Assembly: GCF_947492535.1 (NCBI RefSeq)
Contig: NZ_CANLNH010000006.1
Span: 124,001-188,000, forward strand
Direction of reading: 5' to 3'
DNA from: an uncultured Dokdonia sp.
GTDB taxonomy: Bacteria > Bacteroidota > Bacteroidia > Flavobacteriales > Flavobacteriaceae
DNA length: 64,000 nucleotides
The notes under the pieces were generated by a model that had not been told where the DNA came from, did not search any database, and saw only the letters and a program-made list of their open reading frames with translations. Both the position numbers and the translations under genes were made by a program. Of the stretch, positions 2,144-58,846 are shown one piece after another; within the stretch, counting starts at the first letter, position 1, and each line of letters opens with the position of its first letter.

Positions 2144-3275
2144 AACAAAAATATGGTTGTCTTCTCCACATATGGGAGGAACAGAACAGAACTATGTAAA
2201 TGAAGCTTTCGATACAAATTGGATCGCTCCATTGGGCCCTAATGTAAATGGTTTTGAAAACGATTTAAGTGCCTATCTTAATAACAACCCTGTAGCTGCA
2301 TTGAGTTCTGGAACTGCCGCACTTCATCTAGCATTATTACAGTGTGGTGTTGGACAAGGAGATGAAGTGATTTGTCAATCATTTACATTTTCTGCAAGTG
2401 CAAATCCAATTACATATTTAGGGGCTACTCCAGTTTTTGTAGATAGTGAAGACGTAACGTGGAATATTTCTCCTAAATATTTAGAAGAAGCTATTACTGA
2501 TCGCATAGCAAAAGGGAAAAAACCAAAAGCAATAGTTGCTGTGCATTTATATGGTATGCCTTATTTAGTAGACGAAATACATGCAATTGCCAATAAATAT
2601 GTAATCCCTGTTGTAGAAGATAGTGCCGAAGCATTAGGGTCTACCTATAAAGGAAGAAACTGTGGTACTTTTGGTACTTATGGTGTTTTATCTTTTAACG
2701 GAAATAAAATTATTACTACAAGTGGAGGCGGAGCTCTTGTTTGTCCATCAGAAGAAGCAAAACAGCATACTGTATTTTTAGCAACACAAGCCCGTGACGA
2801 TGCTCCGCATTACCAGCATAGTAGTATAGGCTATAACTATAGGTTAAGTAATATATCTGCCGGAATAGGCAGAGGACAAATGGAAGTGCTGGATAAGCAC
2901 ATAAACCTTCGTAGACAGATGAATTCTTTTTATCAAGAGCTTTTTGAAAAATACGATGGTATTACTGTATTTACAGAACCTAATGAAGATTTTTATAGCA
3001 ACCATTGGTTATCAGCAATTTTAGTAGATCCTGAAAAAACTAATGGCATAACTAGGGAAGATATTCGTCTCGCTTTCGCGAAAGCAAATATAGAATCTAG
3101 ACCACTTTGGAAACCGATGCATATGCAACCAATATTCGAAAACTGTGCTTTTTATGGAGAAAATGTAGCATTTCGTCTATTTAAAAACGGATTATGCGTA
3201 CCTTCGGGCTCAAATTTGATGTTGAATGATAAGCAAAGAATAGAAAAGGTTATCTTTGAATTGCTATCCAGATAG
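2136..3275 (+). CDS. PglE-like PLP-dependent sugar aminotransferase (DegT/DnrJ/EryC1)
   Basis: 379-residue fold-type I aminotransferase that converts a UDP-4-keto-6-deoxy sugar to the 4-amino sugar with glutamate as amino donor. Seen: the pocket ALSSGTAALHLAL, Asp162 in VVEDSAEALG, which contacts the PLP ring nitrogen, and the PLP-binding Lys191 in SFNGNKIITTSGGG. Length fits the family. A full copy of the dispersed palindrome GCTTTCGCGAAAGC lies inside the coding sequence at 3072-3085 and is read as Ala-Phe-Ala-Lys-Ala within LAFAKANIESRP. The gene sits between the acetyltransferase (8-nt overlap) and the dehydratase (9-nt gap). Confidence 0.9.
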   Translation: MNETKIWLSSPHMGGTEQNYVNEAFDTNWIAPLGPNVNGFENDLSAYLNNNPVAALSSGTAALHLALLQCGVGQGDEVICQSFTFSASANPITYLGATPVFVDSEDVTWNISPKYLEEAITDRIAKGKKPKAIVAVHLYGMPYLVDEIHAIANKYVIPVVEDSAEALGSTYKGRNCGTFGTYGVLSFNGNKIITTSGGGALVCPSEEAKQHTVFLATQARDDAPHYQHSSIGYNYRLSNISAGIGRGQMEVLDKHINLRRQMNSFYQELFEKYDGITVFTEPNEDFYSNHWLSAILVDPEKTNGITREDIRLAFAKANIESRPLWKPMHMQPIFENCAFYGENVAFRLFKNGLCVPSGSNLMLNDKQRIEKVIFELLSR

Positions 3276-3284
3276 GATCAATAA

Positions 3285-5264
3285 ATGCATATGAAGAATA
3301 AATTACAAATCGCTATTGAGAATTTATTTTCTGATGACAATAAGTTAGATATTAGGAATATTAGATATCTTCCTCGATGGGCAGTACTATTTATTGATAC
3401 ATTATTAGTTACTTCAAGTTTGTTTCTTACTTATTTCCTTCTTAAGGATCTAAATATTGTTCCTTTAAAAACATTAAGAGTTTCTCAACAGGTAGGACTT
3501 ATAGTTGGTATTAACTTTATCTTCTTATTATTATTTAAGACATATGCAGGGTTAATAAGGCATTCCTCATATATGGATGCATTGAAACTCTTTTTTGCAT
3601 CTGTTTCTACTTTCTTGACATTACTAATAATAAATATCATAAGTATAGCTGTAATTGGGAATAAAATTTTTATTGGCACAGGTCTAATTGTATTTTTATT
3701 TATCTCCTTTTCTGCCTTATTTATTTTTAGATTATCTGTAAAACAATTATATGAATATTTTAAAGTAGCTCAACAGGAAGAAGAACTTATAACTGCTGTT
3801 ATTGTTGGTGTAGATGATGGTGCTATTTCAATAGCAGCTGCATTAGATATAGAGCATCCACAGCGTTTTAAAATACAGGGTTTTGCTTCTAGCAGACAGA
3901 ACAAGAGCTTACGTATTCTAGGAAAACCAGTTTTAGAAATGAATACTTCTATTAGTAGTTTGGTTCATAAATTAGATGCTCAGGCTATTATATTTTCGGG
4001 TAATACACTAAATGCAGAAGAGCGTTATGCATTAGTAAAAGATTGTTTAGAGAATGATATTAAAGTATATAACTCTCCTTTAGTTATAAATTGGTCAGAA
4101 AACACAACAGTAACAGATCAGTTAAAATCTTTACAAATTGAAGATTTATTAAATAGAGATCCTATAGTCCTTAATGCTAAGAATAAAACTGCTCAGATTA
4201 GTAATAAAAATATACTAGTAACAGGAGGGGCAGGTTCTATAGGAAGTGAAATTGTAAGACAAGTTGCTACATATAGTCCTAAAAGACTTATTATCTTAGA
4301 TCAAGCAGAATCTCCATTACATGCATTACATATAGAGCTTAAAGACAAATTCCCAGATCTTACAGTGACTTATGTTATATGTGATGTGGTAAATAGAAAA
4401 CGTCTTAGAGTTCTTTTTGAAACATATAAAATAGATGTGATATATCATGCCGCTGCATACAAGCATGTTCCTTTAATGGAGGATAATCCCTCTGAAGCTA
4501 TACATACTAATGTATTAGGAACAAAATTGATGGCTGACCTCGCAACAGAATTTGGAGTAGGACATTTCGTTATGGTAAGCACTGATAAAGCTGTAAACCC
4601 TAGTAATGTAATGGGAGCTTCAAAAAGGGCTGCAGAAATGTATGTACAATCATTATATTTTGAACAAAAAGAATTAGCTCCTGGAAATACAAAAATCACT
4701 AAATTTATTACTACCCGATTTGGTAACGTATTAGGCTCTAATGGGTCAGTAGTACCGTTATTTAAAAAACAGATAGAAGCTGGTGGCCCAGTAACCATTA
4801 CACACCCAGATATTATTCGTTACTTCATGACTATTCCAGAAGCTTGTCAACTTGTACTTGAAGCTGGCGCTATGGGCAAAGGAGGAGAAATTTTTATTTT
4901 TGACATGGGTGAACCTGTAAAAATTATGGATCTTGCCGAAAAGATGATAAAACTTGCTGGGCATATTCCAAATGAAGATATTGATGTTAAAATCACTGGA
5001 TTACGACCTGGAGAAAAACTATATGAAGAATTATTAAGTGATAAAAGTAAAACGCTTCCTACACACCATACAAAGATTATGATTAGTGAAGATGAAACAA
5101 AAGAATACCTCTTTGTAAATGAATCTATTAAATCTATAGTCAAAGCAGCAAAAGAAAATATGAATAATAAAACTGTTGCAAAGCTTAAACAATTAATCCC
5201 TGAATTTAAAAGTAATAATTCTGAATATGAAATATTAGATATTCAAGTTGAAAAACAAAAATAG
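3285..5264 (+). CDS. PglF/WbpM-like membrane nucleotide-sugar 4,6-dehydratase
   Basis: 659-residue membrane-anchored extended SDR that dehydrates a UDP-HexNAc to the 4-keto-6-deoxy form, first step of the bacillosamine-type path. Seen: four hydrophobic segments in residues 30-150, a first nucleotide-binding-like domain, then a second with ILVTGGAGSIGSEI (about 307-320). The catalytic region STDKAVNPSNVMGASK shows Ser-Met-Lys in place of the usual Ser-Tyr-Lys, as in WbpM/PglF-type dehydratases. A second ATG lies two codons in (3291). Last of the four Pgl-like genes; a promoter follows before the export genes. Confidence 0.9.
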   Translation: MHMKNKLQIAIENLFSDDNKLDIRNIRYLPRWAVLFIDTLLVTSSLFLTYFLLKDLNIVPLKTLRVSQQVGLIVGINFIFLLLFKTYAGLIRHSSYMDALKLFFASVSTFLTLLIINIISIAVIGNKIFIGTGLIVFLFISFSALFIFRLSVKQLYEYFKVAQQEEELITAVIVGVDDGAISIAAALDIEHPQRFKIQGFASSRQNKSLRILGKPVLEMNTSISSLVHKLDAQAIIFSGNTLNAEERYALVKDCLENDIKVYNSPLVINWSENTTVTDQLKSLQIEDLLNRDPIVLNAKNKTAQISNKNILVTGGAGSIGSEIVRQVATYSPKRLIILDQAESPLHALHIELKDKFPDLTVTYVICDVVNRKRLRVLFETYKIDVIYHAAAYKHVPLMEDNPSEAIHTNVLGTKLMADLATEFGVGHFVMVSTDKAVNPSNVMGASKRAAEMYVQSLYFEQKELAPGNTKITKFITTRFGNVLGSNGSVVPLFKKQIEAGGPVTITHPDIIRYFMTIPEACQLVLEAGAMGKGGEIFIFDMGEPVKIMDLAEKMIKLAGHIPNEDIDVKITGLRPGEKLYEELLSDKSKTLPTHHTKIMISEDETKEYLFVNESIKSIVKAAKENMNNKTVAKLKQLIPEFKSNNSEYEILDIQVEKQK

Positions 5265-5287
5265 TTAGAAGTAACATCTTTAAAAGA

Positions 5288-5318
5288 TTGCTTCTTACAC
5301 GTTTTAAGATTACTTTTG
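5288..5318 (+). promoter_or_regulatory. Bacteroidetes-type promoter of the wza/wzc-like pair
   Basis: TTG at 5288-5290 and TACTTTTG at 5311-5318 are separated by 20 nt, a good match to the Bacteroidetes sigma-A pattern TTG-N(about 20)-TAnnTTTG. It lies in the 80-nt gap after the dehydratase gene and 26 nt before the export lipoprotein start, so the export and kinase genes can be transcribed apart from the sugar genes. Confidence 0.7.
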
Positions 5319-5344
5319 CAAACTAATTTTTAGAAAGACAACCA

Positions 5345-8753: not shown

Positions 8754-9479
8754 TCAGCCAAACGTAATCTTTGTATTCTCACATACCGTTTTTAAAGAAG
8801 AAACGTAAGCACTTCCTAACTTCATACGTTCTATCTTATTTAGATGCTCTATTTTATGGGTATCTATTCCTATAAAATCATAGGCACCCTCTTTTAATAA
8901 TTTAAAAGCTATTTTTTGACATGATTCTCCATAATGTTCTGAAAGCGAAAGCGCATTCAATTGTAAAAGACATCCTCTAGATTTAAAATCTTGAAATATT
9001 TCAGGTTTATTATGATAGTATGCATATCGTTCTGGATGTGCTAATATTGGAATATAACCTTGCGTGCCAATTTTAAAGATAATTTCTTTAATATTCTCTG
9101 GTGGTTGAAAATAAGACATTTCTATAAGCACATAGTTTCCATGTAATGGAATGATGTTTTTAGAGTCGAGTAATGCGTCAAAATTATCATCTATCATATA
9201 TTCAGATGAATAGCTAAGTTTTATATCATTAATCTCCTCTTTAATGCTATCATATGCACTTTTAATGATACTAGGTGTGTTATCATAAATACCATGCATT
9301 GTATGTGGTGTTGCGATAATGTTAGGACATCCTAAGTCTTTATATTTTTCAATAATAATAAGACTCATATCCTTGTCCTTTGCACCATCATCTATTCCTG
9401 GTAATACATGGCAATGCATTTCGGGAGTACCACTCCATATATCAATAAATGAGGTTTTCTTTTTAAAAAATTGTAGCAT
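8754..9479 (-). CDS. CpsB/YwqE-type tyrosine-protein phosphatase (PHP domain)
   Basis: 241-residue manganese-dependent phosphatase that dephosphorylates the tyrosine tail of Wzc-like kinases. Seen: PHP metal-binding motifs HCHVLPGIDDGAKD near the N-terminus, ATPHTM, HPERY and GIDTHKIEH. The start is placed at the ATG giving MLQFFKKK; the open frame extends 11 codons further up to a TTG, but that TTG and the following sequence form the promoter. It faces the capsule operon across the shared terminator, which supports a role in regulating that kinase. Confidence 0.88.
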   Translation of the reverse strand: MLQFFKKKTSFIDIWSGTPEMHCHVLPGIDDGAKDKDMSLIIIEKYKDLGCPNIIATPHTMHGIYDNTPSIIKSAYDSIKEEINDIKLSYSSEYMIDDNFDALLDSKNIIPLHGNYVLIEMSYFQPPENIKEIIFKIGTQGYIPILAHPERYAYYHNKPEIFQDFKSRGCLLQLNALSLSEHYGESCQKIAFKLLKEGAYDFIGIDTHKIEHLNKIERMKLGSAYVSSLKTVCENTKITFG

Positions 9480-9572: not shown

Positions 9573-9592
9573 TACGCTTTCGCGAAAGCGTA
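9573..9592. repeat. Dispersed palindrome, 20-bp copy
   Basis: Perfect 20-bp palindrome built on the core GCTTTCGCGAAAGC (9576-9589), between the phosphatase promoter and the terminator of the M14 peptidase gene. One of 11 exact core copies in the window. Confidence 0.95.
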
Positions 9593-9661: not shown

Positions 9662-12600
9662 TTATTTGATGATAAAACGTTTTATCGTACTGATAGAATT
9701 ATCCTTTTTAAAATGCACAAAATAGATTCCAGATCGAAGACGTTGTGTATTTATAAAAGACTCTTTGTTTGTACTTCTATAGACGAGTTTCCCTTGAACG
9801 GTAAAAACATCAAAGTCAAGAGGAGTCGCTGATTGAATATGAATACGAGCTCCATTTTCTGCAGGATTTGGATATAAAGTAATATTCTGCATATCTAGAT
9901 TAATAGTATTTTCTTGGATGCGTTGCGACTTTTCTGAGCTATTTTTAAATGAAGGAATAGCTCCGTTCAATTCCATATTATCTAAAGCAAAATCTGCTTG
10001 CCAAGTACCTCCCGTAATTCTATTAAATCGCAATTGCACGGAACCTCCATCATAAGTAGTTAAATCAATTACTTGTGTATTCCATTGATTTCCTTGATCT
10101 CCTGTAAGTGACCATAGCACTTGCCAAGTATCTCCATTATCTACACTAGCTTCTAGAGCAATGCTACCAAAATCGTTACTACCAAACATATGATAGTCAA
10201 AAGTAAATGTGCTGCCATTTAAAGTAGACAAATCAAAGCATGGAGAGTTTAGAATCGCTTGTTTGTTAGGAAATCCAGTCCCATTTCCCGATGCTTCCAC
10301 ATAAAGATAGGTAGCACCATCACTAGCACTACTTGGACCTGTATTATTAGACGGTGTCCCATTGGCATCTCTCGTCCAGTTAAGATCATCTGTAGTGCTT
10401 TGTGTCCATTCATTCAAATCTATTTCAAAACTTGCAGCATAGGGATAGGTGTTTTCTGTGGCATTACACGATTGTACAGGTGGTATCGTACCTTGAATAA
10501 TCTGTATGTCATCTAAAGCAACATCGCCTCTAAAATCTGTGCCTGTAACTCTATTATATCGTAAAAGGATAGGGAATCCTACATATGGGTCTAGACTTAT
10601 ATTTCTAGTATTCCATTGATTTCCTAGATTTTGATTTTCATTCCATATAGAAAACCAGCTAGCTCCTCCATTGAGACTTACTTCTAAATCTATAGAACCA
10701 AGATTATTACTCGTACCATACATATGATATTTAAAACTAATATATGCATTTATACTCCCAGTTAAATCAATACATGGTGATGTAATAATGGCTTGTTTAT
10801 TAGGAAATCCAGTGCCATTTCCAGAAGCCTCGGTATATATATAATTCTGGCCCTCTATAGCACTATTAGGTCCTGTTCCATTAGAAGGTGTGCCATTTGC
10901 ATCTAGTCTCCAATCGATATCATCGTCTGTATTTTGAATCCAAATATCAAAACCATTTTCAAAACCTAAGAAGTAGGGTAATGCAGTAATCCCTTCAATA
11001 CATCCATTTGTCGTTTCAAGCGTTTGTACTTGAACCGTATTACTTTGATTTGAAATATTACCTGCTTGATCGTTTGCTTCGACGGCAAATGAATATACCG
11101 TATCTGGTGATAAACCAATGACCGTATATGTAGTTCCTACCACTGTGGCAATAGCTTGCCCGTCTTGATATACCGTATAATTAGTAACTCCTACATTATC
11201 TGTAGATGTATCCCAAGATAGCGTAGTTGCAATCTGTGTAATATCAAAAGCAATAAGATTGGTAGGAGCAGTAGGTGCTTCTGTATCTGGAATCCCCTGA
11301 GAAATCACTACAGTATAATCTTCTACTTCTCCAAAATCATAACCCCCACAACTTGTTGGAATTGTATTGTAACGCATACTAACACGTAATCGAGTAGATC
11401 CTATAGGTATATTGTTTGGAATAGTAAAACTTCCTGTAATTGGTGAATTTGTTGTTGGTGTTTGCGTAAATATACGTTCTGTACTATCATCAAAAAGACC
11501 ATCTTGATTATAATCTATCCATATTGCATATCCTTCAGGGAATGTATTGCCAGTCCAAGTAGGTTCAATGGTAAAATTATACGTTTGATTCATCTCTAAC
11601 CCTGTAGAAATTGCTGTAAAGTCACTATAATTTTGACCTCCAGAACTGTTATTTATCGTATTGAGTTCAAATCTGCTGATAAATTCTTCTGTAGCATTGT
11701 TACTAGAAGCATCACAATAGGTAATAGGAGGCGTTAGCGTTGTAAATGAAATCACAGTACTGTATACCGAAGAAGAACCATCAGAACACGTACTATTCAC
11801 TTCTACTTCATAAATCGTATCACTCGCAAGATTGAGTAAATCTGTTTGTAACGCTGTAGTTGTAATAGTTTGAAATGTGTTGTTTCCGCTTTCGCGAAAG
11901 CGTACTTCATACGAAACCCCATTGGTAGCGTCCCATTGTACGGTAGCAGCGTTATCGGTAATAGCATTCACGGTCACATTTTGAGGAATCTCAGTGTCGC
12001 ATGCAGGAAGATTTACTGTAAATGAAATAGAAACAGGAGTAGCGGCTTCAAATGTAGTATTTCCATCCTGAGTTGCTTCTACCGTCACAATCCCAGCAGT
12101 TCCATCTAATGTAAGTAGATTACCAGTTATAGTAGCTGGTCCAGATGTAATCGAATAACTCACAGGAAGCCCAGAACTCGCTGTTGCATTTAATGTAATA
12201 GGTCCAGCGGTAGACAACTGATCTGTTATTGGGGGAAATGTAATGGTTTGCGAAGCGGGAGGGACTGGGACGCTATTTAGAACTTGGAAATCATCAAATG
12301 TAAACCCTTCAAAAGTAGTCGTGTACCCACTGGTAAGATTTGAAGAGTCAGAATCAAAAATAAAACGGATGAATACATTAGATGCCCCTTGTAAAAAACT
12401 GTTATTTGTAGCATCTATTACAATCTCTTCCAAAGACCATTTATCTTGTGTATCTCCATCATACAATGGTTCTCCATCAGGTTGGTGGGCTTCATCCGAA
12501 CTTGATTTCTGACTATAAGGATTGGTATCTATTGGACTTCCTGGTTTTGTGTAATTTCCTGTTAATGGAGTCCAGGATGCACCTCCATCTATAGACGCTT

Positions 12601-14545
12601 CTATTTGCGCAAAATCAAAATCACGTTCAATATCCCACTTAGCAAAAAACTGAATAGTAGTTTGTTGTGATGTCGATAAATCTATTGGATTTGCAAGTGT
12701 TAGTGTTTCAAATATATTATTTCCATAACTACTCGTAGTATTCGTAATTGCTGTAGTACCTGTAAAGGTATCAGTGGTTTCTTGCCAACCATTACTTATC
12801 CAATTAGAAAGTCCGTTGAGATCAGTGTCATCAGTAAATATAACTGCAGGCGTAAACTGTTTTTCAATAACGGCTTGATAAAGTATATAATCTTCATTTG
12901 CGACAGTTACTTCATACTGAACGGTATCGCCAGCCTGTATACTTGTATCAAGAGCATATGAAAAGTTAAGTGTAGTCTGCTCTAACTTTAAAAGACTTAT
13001 AGTTTGTGATGCTCCGATGTTATTGATGTTATTGGAAATAGGAGTAACCGTTACTGTAACAGGAGAAGGGGTTTGCCCTAGATATTCTACACCTATTTGT
13101 AACTGACCAGTAACCGAAGAAAGATTAGAAGGCGTGAGGTCTTTATACTTTGCATACTTTCCACTATAGTAAGCGGCAAGGAGGTTGACACGCATCGCAC
13201 GCTGTGCAATAGGAAGTATATTGGATGGAGAAGGGTAGAAGCCACCTTCGGCACCGCTTCCATTTTCAGGACTAAATGCTATAATATTTTTTCCAGACCC
13301 AGTAGATCCTGTTGCATCAGGGCTTGTGCCTCCCAATAACCAATCAATATGACTACCACTTGCTACAGGAGGTCCGGTTTCTGTTACTGCACCGTAACCA
13401 TATCTGTTATAAAAGCTCATATCATGACCGTATTGTGCAAATTCATCTTCTCTACCAGTTGGACTCCCAATACTTGAGTATGAATGATATAAAATATTAC
13501 TAAATGCATGATGATCGAGTGCTACTTTAAAATCTCTTGAGAGTACAAAATCGCGTACTATGCGAGATTCTGGTTCAGAAAAAGGACCGGTACCTCTAAA
13601 GTCTTGAGCACAAGGATTTGATGAAGCACCACCATTATTCCAGAAATATCCACTATTGCGATTTAAATCAACCCCATCATTATCGCCACCACATCCACTT
13701 GTAACTCTTCTGTTTTTACGTTGTAAACCTCCACCATTAGGGTTGTTATCAATATTAAATTGATATCCATCAGGATTTAAAATGGGAATAAAATATAGCT
13801 CATGGTTATCTACCAAGTTTTTGATTCCTGGATCAGTATCATAGTTTTCCAATAAATACCACATATAATAAAGCTGATTCATAAGACTAGAGATCTCCCT
13901 AGCATGAATGAGTGAATTATATAGTGTCTCTGGTTCATCTTCATCTATATCTGGATTATCAGATATTTTTACATAATAAACAGTACGTCCCTCTATGGTT
14001 GTTTCTGAAGCAGCAGCTGTTCTGGCTGTAATAAGAGTAGGATATTGCGCACGCATAGCATCTAGTTCTGCAAGTGCTTCATCTAACGTTAATGAACCTG
14101 CATAGCTTCCTAGATTAAAGTTTTGCGGTACTGTCCAATTGATCTCATTTTCGCCTATATATTGCCCAATATTTGTAACACTCTCTGAAGTGACACTGGA
14201 TATTTGCTGATACGGTTCAACGGGTATAGATTTCATAGCATTCAATCCTGTTGTGGCTACGCTCATATCTGAGAGTGCCCTATCGGCATAAAAGGTAGAA
14301 AGATCTTCTATAAGTGTTTCAGAATTAAAAGCAAGAGAAGCCATGAGATCTTGTTCATAAGGAGTTAGTTCCAAAATAAGATCATTACCGTCTTGATATA
14401 CCCCACAATGCATATCAATACCTACATTGCTTAATTGTACTATTTGTTGTTGTGTAATGTTTGAAATTTTCACCCTTTTGTTAGTTTGAGCGTGGGTAGA
14501 AATTACGCATAAGAGAAGTACTCCATAAAATAATTTACGAATCAT
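9662..14545 (-). CDS. Secreted multidomain M14 zinc carboxypeptidase with T9SS sorting domain
   Basis: 1627-residue exported peptidase. Seen in order: signal peptide ending STHAQ (1-20); M14 domain about 145-460 with zinc ligands in HARE (His214, Glu217) and His346 in DHHAFSN, substrate residues in DLNRN, and a catalytic Glu candidate in FSPENG (427); a beta-sandwich region; two fibronectin type III-like domains; between them a GEVED-like domain (YAIWIDYNQDG, DFGEVEDYTV); two MAM-like repeats of about 160 residues with shared motifs DANGTPSN and EASGNGTGFPNKQAI; and a type A sorting domain (about 1560-1627) ending in FIIK. The protein should be secreted by the type IX system and released or anchored at the surface. 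A palindrome copy (11888-11901) is read as VRFRESG. Confidence 0.92.
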   Translation of the reverse strand: MIRKLFYGVLLLCVISTHAQTNKRVKISNITQQQIVQLSNVGIDMHCGVYQDGNDLILELTPYEQDLMASLAFNSETLIEDLSTFYADRALSDMSVATTGLNAMKSIPVEPYQQISSVTSESVTNIGQYIGENEINWTVPQNFNLGSYAGSLTLDEALAELDAMRAQYPTLITARTAAASETTIEGRTVYYVKISDNPDIDEDEPETLYNSLIHAREISSLMNQLYYMWYLLENYDTDPGIKNLVDNHELYFIPILNPDGYQFNIDNNPNGGGLQRKNRRVTSGCGGDNDGVDLNRNSGYFWNNGGASSNPCAQDFRGTGPFSEPESRIVRDFVLSRDFKVALDHHAFSNILYHSYSSIGSPTGREDEFAQYGHDMSFYNRYGYGAVTETGPPVASGSHIDWLLGGTSPDATGSTGSGKNIIAFSPENGSGAEGGFYPSPSNILPIAQRAMRVNLLAAYYSGKYAKYKDLTPSNLSSVTGQLQIGVEYLGQTPSPVTVTVTPISNNINNIGASQTISLLKLEQTTLNFSYALDTSIQAGDTVQYEVTVANEDYILYQAVIEKQFTPAVIFTDDTDLNGLSNWISNGWQETTDTFTGTTAITNTTSSYGNNIFETLTLANPIDLSTSQQTTIQFFAKWDIERDFDFAQIEASIDGGASWTPLTGNYTKPGSPIDTNPYSQKSSSDEAHQPDGEPLYDGDTQDKWSLEEIVIDATNNSFLQGASNVFIRFIFDSDSSNLTSGYTTTFEGFTFDDFQVLNSVPVPPASQTITFPPITDQLSTAGPITLNATASSGLPVSYSITSGPATITGNLLTLDGTAGIVTVEATQDGNTTFEAATPVSISFTVNLPACDTEIPQNVTVNAITDNAATVQWDATNGVSYEVRFRESGNNTFQTITTTALQTDLLNLASDTIYEVEVNSTCSDGSSSVYSTVISFTTLTPPITYCDASSNNATEEFISRFELNTINNSSGGQNYSDFTAISTGLEMNQTYNFTIEPTWTGNTFPEGYAIWIDYNQDGLFDDSTERIFTQTPTTNSPITGSFTIPNNIPIGSTRLRVSMRYNTIPTSCGGYDFGEVEDYTVVISQGIPDTEAPTAPTNLIAFDITQIATTLSWDTSTDNVGVTNYTVYQDGQAIATVVGTTYTVIGLSPDTVYSFAVEANDQAGNISNQSNTVQVQTLETTNGCIEGITALPYFLGFENGFDIWIQNTDDDIDWRLDANGTPSNGTGPNSAIEGQNYIYTEASGNGTGFPNKQAIITSPCIDLTGSINAYISFKYHMYGTSNNLGSIDLEVSLNGGASWFSIWNENQNLGNQWNTRNISLDPYVGFPILLRYNRVTGTDFRGDVALDDIQIIQGTIPPVQSCNATENTYPYAASFEIDLNEWTQSTTDDLNWTRDANGTPSNNTGPSSASDGATYLYVEASGNGTGFPNKQAILNSPCFDLSTLNGSTFTFDYHMFGSNDFGSIALEASVDNGDTWQVLWSLTGDQGNQWNTQVIDLTTYDGGSVQLRFNRITGGTWQADFALDNMELNGAIPSFKNSSEKSQRIQENTINLDMQNITLYPNPAENGARIHIQSATPLDFDVFTVQGKLVYRSTNKESFINTQRLRSGIYFVHFKKDNSISTIKRFIIK
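11887..11902. repeat. Dispersed palindrome inside the peptidase gene
   Basis: 16-bp perfect palindrome CGCTTTCGCGAAAGCG in the minus-strand coding sequence, read as Arg-Phe-Arg-Glu-Ser in a fibronectin-like domain. This frame differs from the coding copies at 3072 and 35968. Confidence 0.95.
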
Positions 14546-14850: not shown

Positions 14851-15894
14851 TTGAGCTTTAGGAATAAACATAGATTATCAATTATAGCAACGTATTGTGT
14901 AGGTTGGACCTTAGCTTTTATATTTCTTAGTATCGTAAGAGGTATTGGTGCTACAGAAAATGGGGCGTATGATTTTGATTTTACAACAAGCTTGCTTTAT
15001 TCTGTTATTATGGGACCTATCTTTGGTGCTATTTCTGGATATGCACAAATTTATATCTATGAGCGTATTTATAAAAGAGCCTCAGCTCGTGAATTGATAT
15101 TTATCAGGATGTTATTGTCAATTATTTTCATCATCATACTGATTTTAATTTCGTATTTGATTTTACCATTACTTTTTGAAGTACGTATAGGTTTATGGGA
15201 GTTTATCACTGATGAAGGAAGTTTTCCTATTTATTTTTATGTCTTCTGTGTAGATATCTTTATGGGAGCTTTATCACAAATCAATTTAATGCTTGGAGGA
15301 AATAATTTGTGGAAAATACTACGAGGTAAATTTTATATCCCACATGAAGAAAATAGGATCTTTATGTTTTTAGATTTACAATCTTCTACAGAATATGCAG
15401 AACGGTTAGGTCATATTGAATATAGTATGCTTATACGAGATTGTTTTAATGATCTAGGCGTTGTCATAGAAAATGAAGCAGAAATTTATCAATATGTTGG
15501 TGATGAAGCAATTCTCACTTGGCAGTTAAGAGATGGTTTGCGAAATCAAAATTGTATCAATGCCTTTTTTAATTTTAAGAATCAGCTTCTTAAAAAGAAA
15601 GAGTATTATAAAGAAAAATACAATGTTGTACCCTTCTTTAAAGCGGGACTCAATGATGGTATTGTAGTTGCTACTGAGGTAGGTAAGTATAAAAAAGAAA
15701 TAGCATATCACGGGGATACTATTAACACTGCAGCTAGAATACAAGGGAAGTGTAATGAGTTTCAACAAGAATTATTACTCTCAGAAAGCTTAAAAAATAA
15801 ACTAAACCCAGCAGGTATTACCTTTGAACGATTAGGCAACATTACTTTACGAGGTAAACGTTCAGACGTAAATATTTACACTGCTTTTAAGTAG
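14851..15894 (+). CDS. Membrane class III adenylate/guanylate cyclase
   Basis: 347-residue protein with four hydrophobic segments in residues 10-150 followed by a cytoplasmic class III nucleotidyl cyclase domain. Seen: the metal-binding FLDLQSST, a second metal region YQYVGDEAI, GLNDGIVVATEV and the transition-state region INTAARIQ. The substrate-specifying lysine and aspartate cannot be assigned with certainty by eye. The start is a TTG; no suitable ATG exists, and an 8-codon ORF (14828-14854) ends across this TTG, so its translation could feed into the cyclase start. A palindrome copy lies 13 nt after the stop. Confidence 0.85.
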   Translation: MSFRNKHRLSIIATYCVGWTLAFIFLSIVRGIGATENGAYDFDFTTSLLYSVIMGPIFGAISGYAQIYIYERIYKRASARELIFIRMLLSIIFIIILILISYLILPLLFEVRIGLWEFITDEGSFPIYFYVFCVDIFMGALSQINLMLGGNNLWKILRGKFYIPHEENRIFMFLDLQSSTEYAERLGHIEYSMLIRDCFNDLGVVIENEAEIYQYVGDEAILTWQLRDGLRNQNCINAFFNFKNQLLKKKEYYKEKYNVVPFFKAGLNDGIVVATEVGKYKKEIAYHGDTINTAARIQGKCNEFQQELLLSESLKNKLNPAGITFERLGNITLRGKRSDVNIYTAFK

Positions 15895-15906: not shown

Positions 15907-15922
15907 CGCTTTCGCGAAAGCG
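15907..15922. repeat. Dispersed palindrome after the cyclase gene
   Basis: 16-bp perfect palindrome with core GCTTTCGCGAAAGC, just downstream of the cyclase stop codon and upstream of two GC-rich hairpins. Confidence 0.95.
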
Positions 15923-25469: not shown

Positions 25470-25578
25470 TTCATCACGTATTAATTGGTTCCGAAAAATA
25501 GGAATAACGTCTTTAGTATAGTTTACATAATAATGGTATGATTATTAACACTATGTTAAATAGATGTTAGTTGGTTAC

Positions 25579-25592
25579 GCTTTCGCGAAAGC
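25579..25592. repeat. Dispersed palindrome upstream of the SDR gene
   Basis: Exact core GCTTTCGCGAAAGC in the divergent region, 25 nt before the SDR start codon. It lies inside a longer false open frame that reads through it as AFAKA. Confidence 0.95.
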
Positions 25593-25617
25593 TATCGTAA
25601 ATTTACTCCAAAATATA

Positions 25618-28547: not shown

Positions 28548-28580
28548 TTGTTGATAGCCCTCGTGAGATTTATCAATTAT

Positions 28581-45433: not shown

Positions 45434-46981
45434 TTACCTAGGCTCCAATATAGCTATAGGAATAATCATTTCTTCTAATGAAACACCTCCATGCTGATAG
45501 GTATTTCTATAATAACTCACATAGTGATTGTAGTTGTTTGGGTATGCAAAAAACAAGTCACTTTTAGCAAAAATAAACGAACTACTCATATTAATCGTAG
45601 GAAGATGAATGGTGCGAGGGTCTTTTGCTGCGAGTACATCTTTGTCTTCATACGTAAGACTTCTTCCTGTCTTATAGCGTAAATTTAAACTTGTATTCTT
45701 ATCCCCAATCACCTTTGAAGGATTCTTTACATTAATAGTCCCATGATCTGTAGTGATAATTAACTTAAAGCCCATTTGTTGTGCTTGCTGTATCATATCT
45801 AACAACGGAGAGTTTTTAAACCAACTTTCTGTAAGTGATCTATACGATTTATCGGTACTTGCGAGCTCTTTGATCACTTCCATTTCTGTTTTAGAATGTG
45901 AAAGCATATCCACAAAGTTGTATACGACTACCGTAAGATCATTATTCTTTTGGGATTTAAAATTTTCAGCCAACTTTTTACCATTCTTTAAATTGGTAAT
46001 TTTATGATATTCCCACGTAATATCTATATGTAGTCGTTTCAGTTGTTCTCTTAAAAAATCGGCTTCATGCATATTTTTACCACCTTCATCTGTATCATCC
46101 AACCAATAGTTTGGATGTCTCTTTTTCATCTCACTAGGCATTAAACCTGAGAAAATAGCATTACGCGCATATTGTGTAGCGGTAGGAAGAATACTGTAAT
46201 ACGCATCTTCTTCTCTTTTTTTATAATAAGATGATAAGTGCGGTTCGAATGCTTTCCATTGATCGTATCTAAGATTATCGATGACTACAAATAGCGTAGG
46301 TTCTCCTTTTTTAATTTCTGGCGCTACTTTTTCTTTAAAAAGCGTATGAGACATAATAGGCCCATCATGTGATGTAAACCAATCTGGATAATTTCTATCT
46401 ACAAATTTACAGAACTGATGATTTGCCTCTGCTTTTTGAGACTCTAAAATCTCAAACATGCTAGGATCTTCAATGGTTTCTAATTCCATTTCCCAGTAAA
46501 TCAATTTTTGATATAATTCAGACCATTCATCAAAAGAATTTACCATCGAAAGGTCCATCGCAATTTTTCTAAATTCTTGTTGATATGAAGAAGCTGTTTT
46601 TTGAGATACCAAACGGCTATGATCCAAGTTTTTCTTTAAACTCAGCAAAATCTGATTAGGATTCACGGGTTTAATAAGGTAGTCGGCAATTTTAGAACCA
46701 ATTGCTTCTTCCATAATATACTCCTCTTCACTTTTGGTAATCATCACTACAGGTACACTCTCGCGTTTGTTTTTGATCTCATTAAGTGTTTCCAACCCTG
46801 TTAAACCTGGCATGTTTTCATCAAGAAAAACAATATCAAAATTTTGTTCATCGATGATTTCAATAGCCTCGGTACCGCTCGTACATTTGGTTACAGAATA
46901 GTTCTTTTTCTCTAAAAAAAGGATATGTGGTTTTAATAAATCAATTTCGTCATCTACCCAAAGAATGTTGATTGTACTCAT
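45434..46981 (-). CDS. porX: PorX: response regulator with PglZ domain, T9SS regulator
   Basis: 515-residue two-domain regulator. Seen: an N-terminal receiver with Asp10, Asp11, phospho-acceptor Asp54 in VFLDENMPG and Lys83 in MITKSEE; a helical linker; and a C-terminal PglZ/alkaline-phosphatase-like domain with LFVVIDNLRYDQW, TATQYARNAIFSG and ITTDHGTINV, the metal-site motifs. In Porphyromonas and Flavobacteria PorX works with PorY to control type IX secretion. This fits the T9SS-sorted peptidase at 9.6-14.5 kb. A palindrome lies 21 nt upstream of the start. Confidence 0.92.
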   Translation of the reverse strand: MSTINILWVDDEIDLLKPHILFLEKKNYSVTKCTSGTEAIEIIDEQNFDIVFLDENMPGLTGLETLNEIKNKRESVPVVMITKSEEEYIMEEAIGSKIADYLIKPVNPNQILLSLKKNLDHSRLVSQKTASSYQQEFRKIAMDLSMVNSFDEWSELYQKLIYWEMELETIEDPSMFEILESQKAEANHQFCKFVDRNYPDWFTSHDGPIMSHTLFKEKVAPEIKKGEPTLFVVIDNLRYDQWKAFEPHLSSYYKKREEDAYYSILPTATQYARNAIFSGLMPSEMKKRHPNYWLDDTDEGGKNMHEADFLREQLKRLHIDITWEYHKITNLKNGKKLAENFKSQKNNDLTVVVYNFVDMLSHSKTEMEVIKELASTDKSYRSLTESWFKNSPLLDMIQQAQQMGFKLIITTDHGTINVKNPSKVIGDKNTSLNLRYKTGRSLTYEDKDVLAAKDPRTIHLPTINMSSSFIFAKSDLFFAYPNNYNHYVSYYRNTYQHGGVSLEEMIIPIAILEPR

Positions 46982-47002: not shown

Positions 47003-47016
47003 GCTTTCGCGAAAGC
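47003..47016. repeat. Dispersed palindrome upstream of porX
   Basis: Exact core GCTTTCGCGAAAGC in the divergent region between porX and the HD hydrolase gene. Confidence 0.95.
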
Positions 47017-47084: not shown

Positions 47085-48314
47085 GTGATAAAACAGTCTA
47101 CCAAAGTTACTATAATTAACGATCCTATTTATGGTTTTATTACCATACCTAATGGTGTTATTTTTAATTTGATTCAGCATCCCTATTTCCAACGCTTACG
47201 TCGTATTACACAAATGGGCCTTTCATATTTGGTATATCCAGGGGCACATCACACACGTTTTCACCATGCAATAGGGTGTTTGCATATTATGCAAAAAGCA
47301 CTGATAACCCTTAAAAATAAAGGTGTTCTTATTTCTAAAGAAGAAGAAGAAGCAACGCTTATTGCCATATTATTACACGATATAGGACATGGGCCTTTTT
47401 CACATGCCATGGAAGAAAGTATCATAGAAAACGTGCATCATGAGCAGATTTCTATCGCTTTTATGGAAGCTTTAAACGAAGAGTTTAACGGAAGTTTAAC
47501 GCTAGCACTCCAAATATTTCAAGGCACTTATACACGTAAATTTTTAAATCAACTTGTATCGGGTCAATTAGACATGGATCGTACTGACTATTTGAAAAGG
47601 GATAGTTTTTATACAGGTATGGCAGAAGGGAACATTAATACAGATCGTATTATTGCGATGCTTAATGTATTTGAAGACCAACTTGTCGTGGAAGAAAAAG
47701 GAGTCTATACTGTCGAAAAGTTTTTAGTAGCTAGGCGTCTTATGTATTGGCAAGTATATCTACATAAAACGGGGGTCGTGGCAGAACAGTTAATTACGCG
47801 AGTTTTAAAACGAGCCAAAGAAGTATCACATACAGGAGTAGATCTGCCTGCGAGTAGTGCGTTATCCTATTTTTTAAAGAATAAAATTGATCAACATAAT
47901 TTTAAGGAAGCCTTAAATACGTTTTCAAAATTGGATGATTATGATATTATTTCGGCTATGAAAGAGTGGTGTTATACTGACGACTTTGTACTTAGAGAAT
48001 TATCAAAATCTATTATCAATAGAGATTTATTAAAAGTAAAAATTCGAAAAAAACCATTTTCAGAAGAGAAACAACAAAAGCATATTAATTCATTAATAGC
48101 GCGTTATAATATAAGTTCTTACGAAGCTTCTTATTTTGTTTTTACAGGAAAAATATCAAATCAAGGATATAATTATACACAAGGAGGCATCAATATAGTC
48201 TTACCAAATGGCAAGATTGTAGACGTAGTAAAAGCTAGTGATCAATTAAGTTTAAAATCGTTAACAAAAGAAGTAGTTAAAAACTATATATGCTACCCCA
48301 AACCTAAAGACTAA
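47085..48314 (+). CDS. HD-domain phosphohydrolase
   Basis: 409-residue metal-dependent hydrolase of the dNTPase-like HD family. Seen: [42 protein letters not shown] with the first metal His, the HD motif [15 protein letters not shown], and [15 protein letters not shown]. Such proteins hydrolyse nucleotides; this subgroup is widespread in Bacteroidetes beside lpxD. The start is GTG (MIKQSTKV); no ATG fits. It heads the lipid A gene run. Confidence 0.88.
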
Positions 48315-50769: not shown

Positions 50770-51555
50770 ATGAACCAACCACTCGCATATGTGCACCCAG
50801 GTGCTAAAATTGCAAAAAATGTAGTTATAGAACCTTTTACTACTATTCATAATAATGTAGTGATAGGAGAAGGAAGCTGGATAGGATCTAATGTTACTAT
50901 CATGGAAGGAGCCCGCATCGGTAAAAACGTAAGTATTTTCCCAGGAGCGGTGATATCAGCCATTCCACAAGACAAAAAATTTAATGATGAAGATACAGTC
51001 ACGATTATAGGTGATAACACAACCATCAGGGAGTGTGTTACTATAAATAGAGGTACTTCAGATCGTATGAAAACAGAAGTTGGAAAAAACTGTTGGATTA
51101 TGGCCTATTGTCATATAGCACATGACTGTATTGTAGGAGATAATTGTATTTTTTCAAATAATAGTACACTAGCAGGACATATTACTGTTGGTGAGCATGT
51201 GGTTTTAGCAGGAATGGCTGCGGTACAACAATTCTGTACGATTGGGAGTCATGCCTTTGTTACAGGTGGTTCTCTTGTGAGAAAAGATGTACCTCCATTT
51301 GTAAAAGCAGGTAGAGAGCCGTTAAGTTATGTAGGGATTAACTCTATAGGACTTCGTCGTCGTGGATTTACCACAGAAAAAATACGTGAGATTCAAAATA
51401 TTTTTAGAATTCTATACCAAAAGAACTATAATAATACACAAGCGGTAGAAATTATAGAAGCAGAAATGGAAGCTACTCCAGAAAGAGATGAGATATTGCA
51501 ATTTATCAGAAATTCTCAACGTGGTATTATGAAAGGATATTTTAGCTCTAATTAA
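50770..51555 (+). CDS. lpxA: UDP-N-acetylglucosamine acyltransferase
   Basis: 261-residue first enzyme of lipid A synthesis. Seen: hexapeptide-repeat beta-helix from the start (HPGAKIAKNVVIEPFTTI), catalytic His in AYCHIAHDCIVGD, NNSTLAGH and the helical C-terminus GLRRRGFTTEKIREIQNIF. Length is normal. It ends the lpxD / lpxC-fabZ / lpxA set and is followed by a 24-bp palindrome copy. Confidence 0.96.
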   Translation: MNQPLAYVHPGAKIAKNVVIEPFTTIHNNVVIGEGSWIGSNVTIMEGARIGKNVSIFPGAVISAIPQDKKFNDEDTVTIIGDNTTIRECVTINRGTSDRMKTEVGKNCWIMAYCHIAHDCIVGDNCIFSNNSTLAGHITVGEHVVLAGMAAVQQFCTIGSHAFVTGGSLVRKDVPPFVKAGREPLSYVGINSIGLRRRGFTTEKIREIQNIFRILYQKNYNNTQAVEIIEAEMEATPERDEILQFIRNSQRGIMKGYFSSN

Positions 51556-51568: not shown

Positions 51569-51592
51569 TATACGCTTTCGCGAAAGCGTATA
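51569..51592. repeat. Dispersed palindrome, 24-bp copy between lpxA and efp
   Basis: Perfect 24-bp palindrome with core GCTTTCGCGAAAGC (51574-51587), 14 nt past the lpxA stop. It could form a strong hairpin in the transcript. Confidence 0.95.
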
Positions 51593-51676: not shown

Positions 51677-52243
51677 ATGGCAACAACATCAGACATTCGT
51701 AACGGATTATGTATTCATTATAATCATGATATTTTTAAAATCATTGAGTTTTTACACGTAAAACCAGGAAAAGGACCTGCTTTTGTAAGAACAAAAATGA
51801 AAAGTGTAACCACCGGAAAAGTGATAGATAATACCTTTTCTGCGGGACATAAAATAGAAGAAGTACGTGTTGAAACGCATAAATTTCAATTTTTATATCC
51901 AGAAGGGGATACCTATCACTTTATGAATGTAGAAGACTATAATCAGATCACACTACAAAAAGAAACAATAGATGCGGCAGAATTCCTTAAGGAAGGGAAT
52001 GTAGTAACCGTATTAATTAATTCTGAAGATCAAGCGCCTTTATCTGTAGATATGCCTGCAAGTGTTATCTTAGAAGTAACACATACAGAACCTGGAGTTA
52101 AAGGGAACACTGCTACAAATGCTACAAAACCTGCAACTGTAGAAACAGGCGCAAGAGTGAATGTACCTTTATTCATTAATGAAGGAGACAAAATTAAAAT
52201 TGAAACGGCTAAAGGAACGTATAAAGAAAGAATTAAGGAGTAA
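51677..52243 (+). CDS. efp: Elongation factor P
   Basis: 188-residue translation factor that rescues ribosomes stalled at proline runs. Seen: three beta-barrel domains of normal length and the loop KPGKGPAFVR with Lys32 at the tip, the site that is modified in many species. No modifying enzyme (EpmA, EarP) is seen in the window. Confidence 0.96.
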   Translation: MATTSDIRNGLCIHYNHDIFKIIEFLHVKPGKGPAFVRTKMKSVTTGKVIDNTFSAGHKIEEVRVETHKFQFLYPEGDTYHFMNVEDYNQITLQKETIDAAEFLKEGNVVTVLINSEDQAPLSVDMPASVILEVTHTEPGVKGNTATNATKPATVETGARVNVPLFINEGDKIKIETAKGTYKERIKE

Positions 52244-55457: not shown

Positions 55458-57491
55458 ATGACAAGCACCACCTTATTATTAATTATTGGAGCCGCAATTA
55501 TCGCTTTAGCTGTTGCTCTGTTTCAATATTTTTATAAGGCTGTCTATAAGACAAAGCGAAATAGAGTATATGCTTTATTTCGCTTTTTTACTGTTTTTGG
55601 ACTTTTATTACTACTAATTAATCCAAAATACAAACAAGAAACATTCTATACAGAAAAACCTTCTTTGGCCATTGCTGTAGATAACTCTGCGAGTATTCGA
55701 TATTTAGGATATGATACTCGCGTAGAAGATGCTTTGGTACGCTTTCGCGAAAACAAAGACTTAAACAATGCCTTTGATATCCAGTATTTTGGTTTTGGAA
55801 CAGAAGTAACAACCTTAGATTCTGTAAATTTCGCCGAAAGGCAAACAAATATTGCTGACGTTTTTTCTTCATTTACTTCTTTATATAGAAATGATGTAGC
55901 ACCGGTTATACTTTTATCTGATGGAAATCAGACATTTGGAGAAGCATTTGAATACACTAGTAAAAACTTCAATCAGAATGTATATCCTATTGTTGTAGGA
56001 GATACCCTTGTATATGACGATCTTATTGTTGGTCAAGTAAATGTGAATAGATATGCCTATATCAATAATAAATTTCCAGTAGAAGTTTTTACAAATTATA
56101 ATGGAGATCGCGACGTTTCTTCTAGATTAACGATACGTTCAGGAAATACAGTGGTATATCAACAAAACATTAGTTTTTCTAATCAGAAGAAATCACAAAT
56201 CATTACCGCACTAATTCCTGCAAGTACCGTTGGCGTAAGACAATATACAGTAAGTCTTCAGGCTATTGAGAATGAAAAGAATACAAAAAATAATAGTAAA
56301 AACTTTGCGGTAGAAGTTATTGACCAAAAAACCAATGTACTTATTGTTTCTGATATCATTCATCCAGATGTTGGTATGCTTAAGAAAAGTATAGAGAGTA
56401 ATAGATTGCGTAGTGTTACCTACGCAAAACCAGCAGAAGCTGTTGGTACATTAAATGAGTACCAACTCGTTGTTTTATATCAACCTAATGGTCTTTTTCA
56501 ACCTGTATATAGAGAGCTTGAAGCTTTAGGGAAGAATAGTATGACGATCACAGGTCCAAAAACAGATTGGAATGTTGTAAATCAATTGCAAACGGAAGTA
56601 TACCATGAGGTCACAACGCAAGATGAAGATGTTCAAGGAATAAGTAATCCAAATTTCTCTACGTTTGTTCTAAATGATCTTAATTTTTCTGATTTCCCTC
56701 CACTTACCACAAGTTTTGGAGACATCACATTAAAGACTGAAGCTGATATTGCCTTATATCAAAAAATAGGAACCATTACGACAGATACTCCTTTATTGGC
56801 TACTACAGATCAAAATGGTAGGAGAGGGGTATATGTATTTGGCGAAGGACTCTGGCGTTGGAGAGCACAAAGTTATATAGATACTAAGAGTTTTGAAGAT
56901 TTTGATAATTTTATTGATAACTTAATTCAATATGCCGCTTCAAATAAACGAAAGAGTAGGCTTAACTTAGATTATGATTCTTTTTATTACGGGAATGGAT
57001 CTGTAAAACTCTACGCACAATATTTTGACAAGAATTATGTGTTTGACAATAGAGCTGCGCTTACTATAAAAGTGATTAATAAAGAGACAGAAGAGGTCTA
57101 TGATGCTCCTTTTTTACTACAACGTAATGCCTATGAAATTGATTTGAGTAATCTTGCACCTGGTGATTATTCATTTACAGTTACGGTACAAAATCAAGGA
57201 TTAGCAAGGTCTGGCACCTTTACAATAGTTCCTTTTGAAGTAGAACAACAGTTTCTAAATGCTAATGTAACGGCCTTGTCACAAGTTGCAATAAACACAG
57301 ATGGTAAACGATATACTATTTCAACGATTGACCCATTAATTACTTTTTTACTAAATGATACTAGGTATAGACCAGTGCAAAAAAGCACTGAAAATGTTGT
57401 ACCTTTAATAGACTGGAAATGGCTATTAGGTGTTTTAGCTTTACTACTTGCAATAGAGTGGTTTATGCGAAAATATAATGGTCTTACATAA
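55458..57491 (+). CDS. VWA-like membrane protein
   Basis: 677 residues conserved in Bacteroidetes. Seen: two N-terminal membrane helices (about 5-25 and 37-54), a von Willebrand A-like domain starting SLAIAVDNSASIRYLG with a MIDAS-type Asp-x-Ser-x-Ser, a beta-sandwich region, a glutamine-amidotransferase-like middle part, and a C-terminal membrane helix (WLLGVLALLLAIEWFM). Most of the protein should face the periplasm. A degenerate palindrome (55741-55754, one base changed) is read as RFREN. Function unknown. Confidence 0.8.
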   Translation: MTSTTLLLIIGAAIIALAVALFQYFYKAVYKTKRNRVYALFRFFTVFGLLLLLINPKYKQETFYTEKPSLAIAVDNSASIRYLGYDTRVEDALVRFRENKDLNNAFDIQYFGFGTEVTTLDSVNFAERQTNIADVFSSFTSLYRNDVAPVILLSDGNQTFGEAFEYTSKNFNQNVYPIVVGDTLVYDDLIVGQVNVNRYAYINNKFPVEVFTNYNGDRDVSSRLTIRSGNTVVYQQNISFSNQKKSQIITALIPASTVGVRQYTVSLQAIENEKNTKNNSKNFAVEVIDQKTNVLIVSDIIHPDVGMLKKSIESNRLRSVTYAKPAEAVGTLNEYQLVVLYQPNGLFQPVYRELEALGKNSMTITGPKTDWNVVNQLQTEVYHEVTTQDEDVQGISNPNFSTFVLNDLNFSDFPPLTTSFGDITLKTEADIALYQKIGTITTDTPLLATTDQNGRRGVYVFGEGLWRWRAQSYIDTKSFEDFDNFIDNLIQYAASNKRKSRLNLDYDSFYYGNGSVKLYAQYFDKNYVFDNRAALTIKVINKETEEVYDAPFLLQRNAYEIDLSNLAPGDYSFTVTVQNQGLARSGTFTIVPFEVEQQFLNANVTALSQVAINTDGKRYTISTIDPLITFLLNDTRYRPVQKSTENVVPLIDWKWLLGVLALLLAIEWFMRKYNGLT

Positions 57492-58398: not shown

Positions 58399-58513
58399 CT
58401 TTTTAAGATACTTATAATCGCTTTTACAATTACCCCTTGCACTTTTGAAATTGCTATTGTGTTACTTTTTAGTCCCATGTATTTTTAAGTTATAATCTTA
58501 AAACAATGAAGTT

Positions 58514-58747
58514 ATGCTAAAAAACATGTTATTTCTTAAAGGAGTTAAACAATTAAATAAAGTGCAATTAAAGAGTACAAATGGAGGCGCTATTTTTGAA
58601 GATCATGCATTTGCATGTATTCGAACAAAAGATGTCGTAAGTCATACATTTTATGGAAATCAAAGTTCAGGCTCTGCTACTGCTTGGGTTAACGCATGGG
58701 GAAGTCTAGGATGGGACGCATCTTGTGGACATCAGGCTCACAGATAA
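58514..58747 (+). CDS. Double-glycine-leader peptide precursor, 77 aa
   Basis: Predicted secreted peptide precursor: a 25-residue leader (MLKNMLFLKG... QLKSTNGG) with the same length and layout as the leader at 20031, then a 52-residue core with two Cys, several His and small residues (GNQSSGSATAWVNAWGSLGW). The core resembles class II bacteriocins in size and Gly/Ala/Trp content, but no immunity or transporter gene is adjacent. Flanked by terminators, so it is monocistronic. Confidence 0.7.
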   Translation: MLKNMLFLKGVKQLNKVQLKSTNGGAIFEDHAFACIRTKDVVSHTFYGNQSSGSATAWVNAWGSLGWDASCGHQAHR

Positions 58748-58770
58748 AATTGTTTAAAATTTCAAGATAA

Positions 58771-58808
58771 AGCAGTAATTAGTCACCGTATTAGTTACTG
58801 TTTTTTAT
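58771..58808 (+). terminator. Terminator of the 77-aa peptide gene
   Basis: Stem of about 10 bp with wobble pairs (CAGTAATTAG with TTAGTTACTG) and an 8-nt loop, followed by a run of six T. It lies 25 nt past the stop codon. Confidence 0.7.
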
Positions 58809-58822
58809 TTGGAAAGTGAATG

Positions 58823-58846
58823 TATACGCTTTCGCGAAAGCGTATA
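58823..58846. repeat. Dispersed palindrome, 24-bp copy
   Basis: Perfect 24-bp palindrome around GCTTTCGCGAAAGC (58828-58841), 12 nt from the end of the convergent glycosyltransferase gene. Confidence 0.95.

Follow-up and report, generated by a model that had tools for sequence, protein, structure and literature searches.

Introduction

The parS, Noc (NBS), matS, and SlmA sites are palindromic sites of dimeric chromosome-binding proteins, number from few to tens, and are clustered by domain; repetitive extragenic palindromes and their mosaics (REP/BIME) and miniature inverted-repeat transposable elements (MITEs) are dispersed palindromic repeats, often found at gene 3′ ends; and known Chi sites (RecBCD/AddAB) are short, asymmetric, and oriented. 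The highly iterated palindromes (HIPs) of cyanobacteria, HIP1 among them, are 5-10 bp long, occur at 1000-2000 per Mb, and have at least 75% G+C with one exception, according to PMC4390886, which cites HIP1 as described in 1995 and the function of HIPs as open since then. Here we analyze a 14-bp palindrome, GCTTTCGCGAAAGC, that is present in 11 exact copies in 64,000 nucleotides of DNA from an uncultured Dokdonia sp. of the Flavobacteriaceae (assembly GCF_947492535.1, contig NZ_CANLNH010000006.1, positions 124,001 to 188,000; hereafter the window). Like HIP1, it is a perfect dispersed palindrome, far above chance, restricted to certain lineages, and of unsettled function; it differs from HIP1 in having 14 near-invariant bases within a total of about 22 bp, AT-rich outer arms, and even spacing, and in lying below the HIP figures for both density (~170 per Mb here) and G+C (8/14 for the 14-mer). 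Because HIP1 is shorter, several times denser, and GC-rich, we regard the palindrome as a new variety among the highly iterated palindromes rather than a HIP1 member. The initial annotation of this DNA had likened it to HIP1 as an octamer-like palindrome; the dispersion bears out the likeness, but the site is not an octamer and is several times rarer than HIP1.

We propose, with a probability of about 0.5 and on sequence evidence, that the palindrome is the binding site of a putative protein that would work on chromosome-resident DNA in the form of a symmetric dimer, its likeliest job being chromosome architecture. That the site is long, exact, symmetric, evenly spaced, indifferent to reading frame, and found in varied resident DNA points to a dedicated dimeric protein with the chromosome as its substrate. 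The sequences themselves show the site, its abundance, its occurrence in few lineages, its origin by substitution, its conservation at one well-aligned gene, its even spacing in two genera, and its presence in some phages and islands; the protein reader, its dimeric state, a spacing set by selection, and the architectural job are all four what we infer. Chromosome organization had been among the functions raised by the initial annotation and gains support here as a possible role, and four features are new relative to that annotation: a ~22-bp consensus, even spacing, occurrence in three lineages only, and carriage by phages and islands. No published account of the palindrome was found in the literature searched, the scope of which left out most subscription journals and all preprints.

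A long, exact, and symmetric site

All 11 exact 14-mers were recovered where they had initially been placed, none is expected by chance in 100 dinucleotide shuffles, and GCTTTCGCGAAAGC is the only 12- or 14-bp palindrome that occurs more than once in the window. The 20-26 bp of symmetry initially ascribed to several copies was likewise found, five of them measuring 20, 22, 24, 24, and 26 bp (at 9576, 28581, 51574, 58828, and 31888, respectively). The 10-mer core TTTCGCGAAA occurs 13 times in the window, as the 11 exact copies and two worn ones at 40250 and 55743. Aligned sites give a consensus of ~22 bp, ATACGCTTTCGCGAAAGCGTAT, in which the core is almost invariant, the sequence outside the left arm T-rich, and that outside the right arm A-rich; the half-site in Dokdonia is ~11 bp, ATACGCTTTCG. 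Near-misses are few: exact copies stand to one-off copies as 68 to 11 in a 400-kb sample of the window's own genome, as 29 to 3 in the g242 sample, 34 to 12 in Dokdonia G206, 15 to 2 in G190 (a third lineage, see below), and 11 to 1 in the window. This long, exact, symmetric core with its scarce near-misses speaks for a protein-binding site.

Abundance and lineage distribution

The genome of the window, a Dokdonia near D. pacifica (its LpxC-FabZ protein is 96% identical to the D. pacifica orthologue), has 827 exact copies in its 4.86 Mb, whereas the control word, made of the same letters reversed, never occurs; the copies are thus neither at chance level nor confined to one mobile element. All 18 genomes of the genus contain between 383 and 937 12-mer cores. 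A survey of 397 genomes of the family gave 6 rich ones, with 408-857 exact copies; another 74 have 1-19 copies and 317 have none. In an order-level sample of 296 genomes no further genome exceeds 11. A second genus, g11, probably Nonlabens, is rich in 23 of 23 genomes with 297-879 cores, the lowest counts being in incomplete genomes, and a third lineage, G190, for which the searched sets contain no congener, has 445. Near-complete rich genomes carry ~450-940 cores each, at mean intervals of roughly 3.5-7 kb.

Among 80 named LpxC-FabZ loci that were fetched, the first 12 all contain a 12-mer core and the other 68 none; of these 12, 11 are titled Dokdonia, and the one titled Cytophagaceae groups within Dokdonia in an LpxC-FabZ tree. 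That tree, a quick one of a single gene with weak deep support, does not unite Dokdonia, g11, and G190, and the sites may have had a single origin followed by many losses. Separately, several species of the genus g128 (for example G510, G532, G542, and G638) have ~10 12-mer cores per genome against 0-2 for the reversed control, scattered where positions are listed; these might be copies of an ordinary operator whose core happens to be alike.

Position of the sites relative to genes

Of the 300 sites in a pool of seven samples, 138 are intergenic and 162 are coding, in sequence that is 9-20% non-coding as judged by a simple gene caller; intergenic enrichment is about fourfold overall, and only the last G190 sample shows little excess (4 of 27). 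By simple gene calls the window itself has 6 intergenic and 5 coding copies, in line with the initial report of copies both in gaps and inside genes, where ~1.2 intergenic copies would be expected; two of the five coding copies (25579 and 28581) are at gene starts with uncertain start codons. Coding sites occupy all three frames, AFAKA being the commonest peptide. The idea that AFAKA sites are mostly signal peptides was rejected, since only a minority are within the first 40 codons.

Intergenic copies on the 3′ side of genes in the own-genome sample are most often centered 10-30 bp past the stop codon, as might be expected of a transcription terminator, an RNA hairpin, or a mobile palindromic repeat of the REP or MITE kind, and in the same sample outer-arm positions 9, 10, and 12 show more symmetric matches than shuffled controls do (p = 0.002, 0.017, and 0.045). 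Such arm covariation is absent from the other three samples, however, TTTT follows within 12 nucleotides downstream in only 5 of 56 stop-proximal sites, where A is the commonest base, and more than half of the pooled sites are coding. Nor does the palindrome resemble REP/BIME or MITEs in its setting, for it shows no sign of insertion, belongs to no longer element, and has about half its copies inside genes. Together with the mostly gapless alignments described below, these observations make this explanation extremely improbable, and agree with the initial view that the site is not a terminator.

Origin, conservation, and turnover

Around three coding sites, 60 of 70, 39 of 50, and 80 of 80 aligned rows are gapless, counting those of Dokdonia. 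Because these alignments are mostly gapless, we conclude that sites are written by substitution, consistent with the initial statement that no transposon flanks the palindrome. A well conserved example is in a 678-amino acid gene (window 55458-57491), where CGC TTT CGC GAA AGC begins at codon 96 in 9 of 10 aligned Dokdonia orthologues; the window copy is the odd one out, with one arm changed and the other nine intact. This site forms the longest invariant run, 13 bases, in a 10-row alignment of 2,085 columns (31% of them invariant), the next longest run being 11, and it is found in none of the non-Dokdonia homologues shown (60 of 70 rows). Two intergenic sites are also shared within the genus: of 12 other Dokdonia loci, 11 have a core as far from lpxC as the one on the porX side (47003), and of the 11 long enough to include the lpxA side (51574), 7 have a core at the corresponding distance there.

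A further shared position lies downstream of parB, where four of five Dokdonia (L331, L332, L333, and L335) and G190 (L317) have a core starting 39 bases past the stop codon that encodes AFAKAQ in the next gene; this core is absent from Dokdonia G206, from five g11 genomes, and from 28 poor genomes, of whose parB-neighbor loci 26 are too short (the eight shown are 3.3 kb) for extra genes beside parB in rich genomes to be informative. The core here is a motif fitted into a tolerant peptide, one whose residues suggest a signal-peptide end, and the position may be shared either by inheritance or because the same permissive peptide was arrived at independently.

A biased process, such as gene conversion or a targeted editing enzyme, that keeps writing the sequence without benefit to the cell would also account for the scarce near-misses and for the exactness of copies in varied resident DNA. 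We consider this very unlikely: such a process alone does not give even spacing, and retention of the codon 96 site in 9 of 10 aligned species while the flanks diverge fits selection better.

Spacing along the chromosome

Sites are spaced more evenly than random in both Dokdonia and g11. The coefficient of variation (CV) of spacing is 0.73 in the own-genome 400-kb sample, compared with 0.95-1.00 under gene-layout controls, and 0.45 in g242 compared with 0.88-1.02; gaps shorter than 1 kb number 2 in the 400-kb sample where 10.4-12.7 are expected under the same controls. Three nulls were used (uniform placement, placement keeping the intergenic share, and, as the strictest, one site per intergenic gap), and under the strictest the CV is significantly low in the 400-kb sample (p = 0.007), in g242 (p < 0.001), and in the window (p = 0.027). 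With uniform placement as the null, a longer G190 list (66 sites) comes out even. When three one-contig genomes were sampled in 20-kb segments, sites were found in every stretch, the counts were significantly even in G685 (p = 0.0025), and no gradient was apparent by eye, the origin not having been located; by the same inspection the sites differ from parS, Noc, and matS sites in showing no restriction to a domain. One exception to the spacing is a pair of sites 101 bp apart in L068 and L069. The notion that long gaps mark foreign DNA was not supported for the largest gap in the own-genome sample, which holds arginine-biosynthesis genes and a porin; the second largest has SusC/SusD-like genes, and a series of small genes occupies the third.

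If the palindrome were a Chi-like signal working in both directions, at which an end-processing nuclease-helicase stops and starts recombinational repair, any break would have a site within a few kb, and selection against long gaps would make the spacing more even. The density of one site per 3.5-7 kb is close to that of Chi in E. coli, and some phages and islands carry the site. The site here is, however, intergenic-enriched, ~22 bp long, and symmetric, unlike known Chi, and such enzymes read a single strand, on which a self-complementary 22-mer would presumably form a fold. Near-misses are also scarce here and many for Chi, PMC1939737 giving 1008 Chi copies and 8855 one-off copies in 4.64 Mb of E. 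coli, a weak comparison since 3579 of the one-off copies of an 8-mer are expected by chance. On balance we judge a Chi-like role unlikely.

Copies in islands and phages

Stretches were fetched around sites in seven low-count genomes of the family. Six of them (from G087, G337, G012, G215, G101, and G078) have related genes in common, encoding an RND pump, an outer-membrane efflux protein, a multicopper oxidase, and a heavy-metal P-type ATPase among eight proteins scanned; the seventh genome, G350, has five scattered sites, and its stretch has no metal-efflux genes. The island stretches, chosen around sites, contain 1-6 ten-mer cores each in 6-20 kb, and their outer-arm bases resemble those of g242 (TTCCG) and not ATACG. 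These metal-efflux islands (loci L008-L018) look like exports from a palindrome-rich host. They occur in several genera, and a two-site spacing of 933 bp recurs in G078, G087, G101, and G215.

A scan of IMG/VR with the 14-mer matched at least 120 stretches, many of them single matches that are perhaps due to chance. Among the stretches listed, 13 have two or more cores (some overlapping or near-identical, and not a census), so that an explanation of the viral matches as chance alone is wrong for a subset. Each of seventeen distinct viral records picked from the listed matches has between 1 and 8 cores, one of them 8 in 37 kb and another 5 in 27 kb; in one (L242) two cores are inside the terminase and portal genes, another (L215) encodes a MuA-like transposase and a MuB-like protein, and a third (L253) encodes an integrase. 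No core, even with two mismatches allowed, is present in two phages isolated on Nonlabens, P12024S (complete) and P12024L (30 kb out of 35.7 kb), and no integrase is annotated in the sequence covered. Because the site-bearing phages include Mu-like and integrase-bearing ones, and the two isolated phages, with no annotated integrase, are without sites, the comparison suggests that residence in the chromosome, rather than entry into the cell, brings sites to phages.

Mu-like transposable phages with 3 to 8 palindromes in 15-37 kb were noted in G708 (L215), G718 (L203), and G711 (L242, by matching site spacing); among the relatives listed for the L215 transposase, the nearest belongs to Winogradskyella phage Peternella_1, at 51% identity.

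Candidate reader proteins

Candidate families were checked one at a time, and a reader protein was not found among them. The half-site TTTC..GAAA is somewhat similar to parS and NBS, but the palindrome differs from parS, Noc, matS, and SlmA sites in having hundreds of widely spread copies and no extra ParB that follows them. The only second type of ParB (~616 amino acids) is encoded by a single rich genome, the other 10 of the 11 having one ParB only, and by six of the 28 poor genomes; because of this distribution no Noc-like paralogue tracks the sites, and a ParB/Noc paralogue was rejected as the reader. The seven genomes of the 39 that encode the ~616-amino acid form are G012, G017 (602 amino acids), G101, G144, G160, G220, and G700, and in G012 its gene lies within a palindrome cluster on contig C18.

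A HIP1-like methylation mark, the other function initially entertained, would have an orphan methyltransferase modify the inner TCGCGA or CGCG, and methylation would favor retention of the site. The palindrome is indeed dispersed over coding and non-coding DNA. The conserved 14-22 bp far exceeds the length of a type II site, however, and the own genome has no match to either PF00145 (C5) or PF01555 (N6/N4) methyltransferases, type I, Dam-type, and Eco57I-type enzymes not having been searched; among 11 Dokdonia genomes, matches above cut-off are absent in 6 for PF00145 and in all 11 for PF01555. This is a difference from HIP1, whose core is linked to two orphan methyltransferases in PMC4390886 and so provides the precedent for such a mark. 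The idea thus found no backing in the two families, and we consider it quite unlikely.

Uptake sequences of Neisseria and Haemophilus also number in the hundreds and are in excess outside genes, and by one view cited in PMC1939737 even spacing too is typical of them, although the same paper later describes them as less even than a role in compaction would need. Could the palindrome mark DNA for uptake in natural transformation, with drive multiplying its copies? Uptake sequences lack palindromic symmetry, and Actinobacillus pleuropneumoniae has 438 exact to 947 one-off copies, 86 of the latter expected (both from PMC1939737), a much greater share of near-misses than here. PF00437, the PilB/PilT/GspE-type ATPase family, has no match above cut-off in any of seven Dokdonia or in G190 (ComEC and other competence genes were not searched), and matches above cut-off in only 2 of 6 g11 genomes, with weak sub-threshold matches in all 28 genomes tested. 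Uptake by a type IV pilus was rejected on these results, and an uptake signal of any kind appears highly unlikely.

Individual copies in the window

In order along the window, exact sites are found at 3072-3085, inside a DegT/DnrJ/EryC1-type aminotransferase gene (2136-3275, plus strand); at 9573-9592, with 20 bp of perfect symmetry, in the intergenic gap between 8754-9479 and 9662-14545 (both minus strand); at 11888-11901, within the second of these, a large M14 carboxypeptidase-like gene; and at 15908-15921, beginning 13 bp past the stop codon of 14851-15894 (plus strand). The two sites at gene starts are at 25579-25592, in a short-chain dehydrogenase gene (25564-26331, plus strand), and at 28577-28598, with 22 bp of symmetry, in a helicase-like gene (28579-30174, plus strand). 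The most symmetric copy, 26 bp and perfect, is intergenic at 31882-31907 (between 30478-31848 and 31977-33317, both minus strand), and the site at 35968-35981 is within an M14 peptidase-like gene (35396-36517, plus strand). The worn 10-mer core at 40250-40259 is in a small gene (40033-40410, minus strand), and the same core is present there in D. pacifica locus L061. Further along are an exact site at 47003-47016, between a porX-like gene (45434-46981, minus strand) and 47085-48314 (plus strand); one at 51569-51592, with 24 bp of symmetry, between an lpxA-like gene (50770-51555) and 51677-52243 (both plus strand); the worn codon 96 site with one arm changed, at 55743-55752 in the plus-strand gene 55458-57491; and an intergenic site at 58823-58846, with 24 bp of symmetry, just past the stop codon of 58858-59616 (minus strand). 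The porX-like gene encodes a response regulator with a PglZ domain beside an lpx gene cluster, in a conserved neighborhood that lends itself to tallying where sites are gained or lost.

Proposed role of the palindrome

In the architectural role proposed here, a putative sequence-specific protein would bind the 22-bp site as a symmetric dimer, with one ~11-bp half-site per arm, and the cores would mark the chromosome at mean intervals of ~3.5-7 kb. Selection would add a site where a long stretch without one offers a permissive position, often intergenic or in tolerant codons, and a site once gained would tend to be kept exact by selection. The likeliest job would be the anchoring or bridging of loops, or the loading of a condensing or segregating factor.

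Several observations weigh against this role, and we wish to set them out together: i) no reader protein was found among the candidate families checked, and the ~300-amino acid ParB is present in 39 of 39 genomes tested, rich and poor alike; ii) under the strictest spacing null G206 is borderline (p = 0.052) and G190, with 16 sites, is not significant (p = 0.21), and the evenness of 20-kb counts is not significant in G668 (p = 0.13) or G190 (p = 0.26); iii) site number does not visibly scale with genome size in Dokdonia (2.6-5.5 Mb), which is odd for a spacing ruler; iv) the residues RFRE at the codon 96 site are as invariant as its bases, so protein constraint may contribute to its conservation; v) sites turn over, as at codon ~324 of the gene after porX, where 2 of 13 Dokdonia rows have the exact site and another two deviate from it by one or two bases; and vi) the phage contrast has a thin basis in two related phages, and the mobile stretches and phage records were selected for holding sites.

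More broadly, we tentatively suggest, at somewhat short of even odds, a new chromosome-marking system in which one protein would serve Dokdonia, the Nonlabens-like genus, and the third lineage, resident DNA would be selected to carry the mark, and islands would export it. The system would have spread by transfer, or would be ancestral and lost elsewhere. Resident DNA, including Mu-like prophages and metal-efflux islands, would come under selection to carry the mark, and islands would take it into genera otherwise without it, as a fingerprint of former residence.

At its length the site is specific (its chance expectation is ~0), so each copy is informative, and its gain, loss, and spacing can be read directly. 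If the palindrome is a chromosome organizer, it would be a dense, even, sequence-defined example of one. It may also serve as a forensic tag, in that an island or phage with several copies probably lived in such a host.

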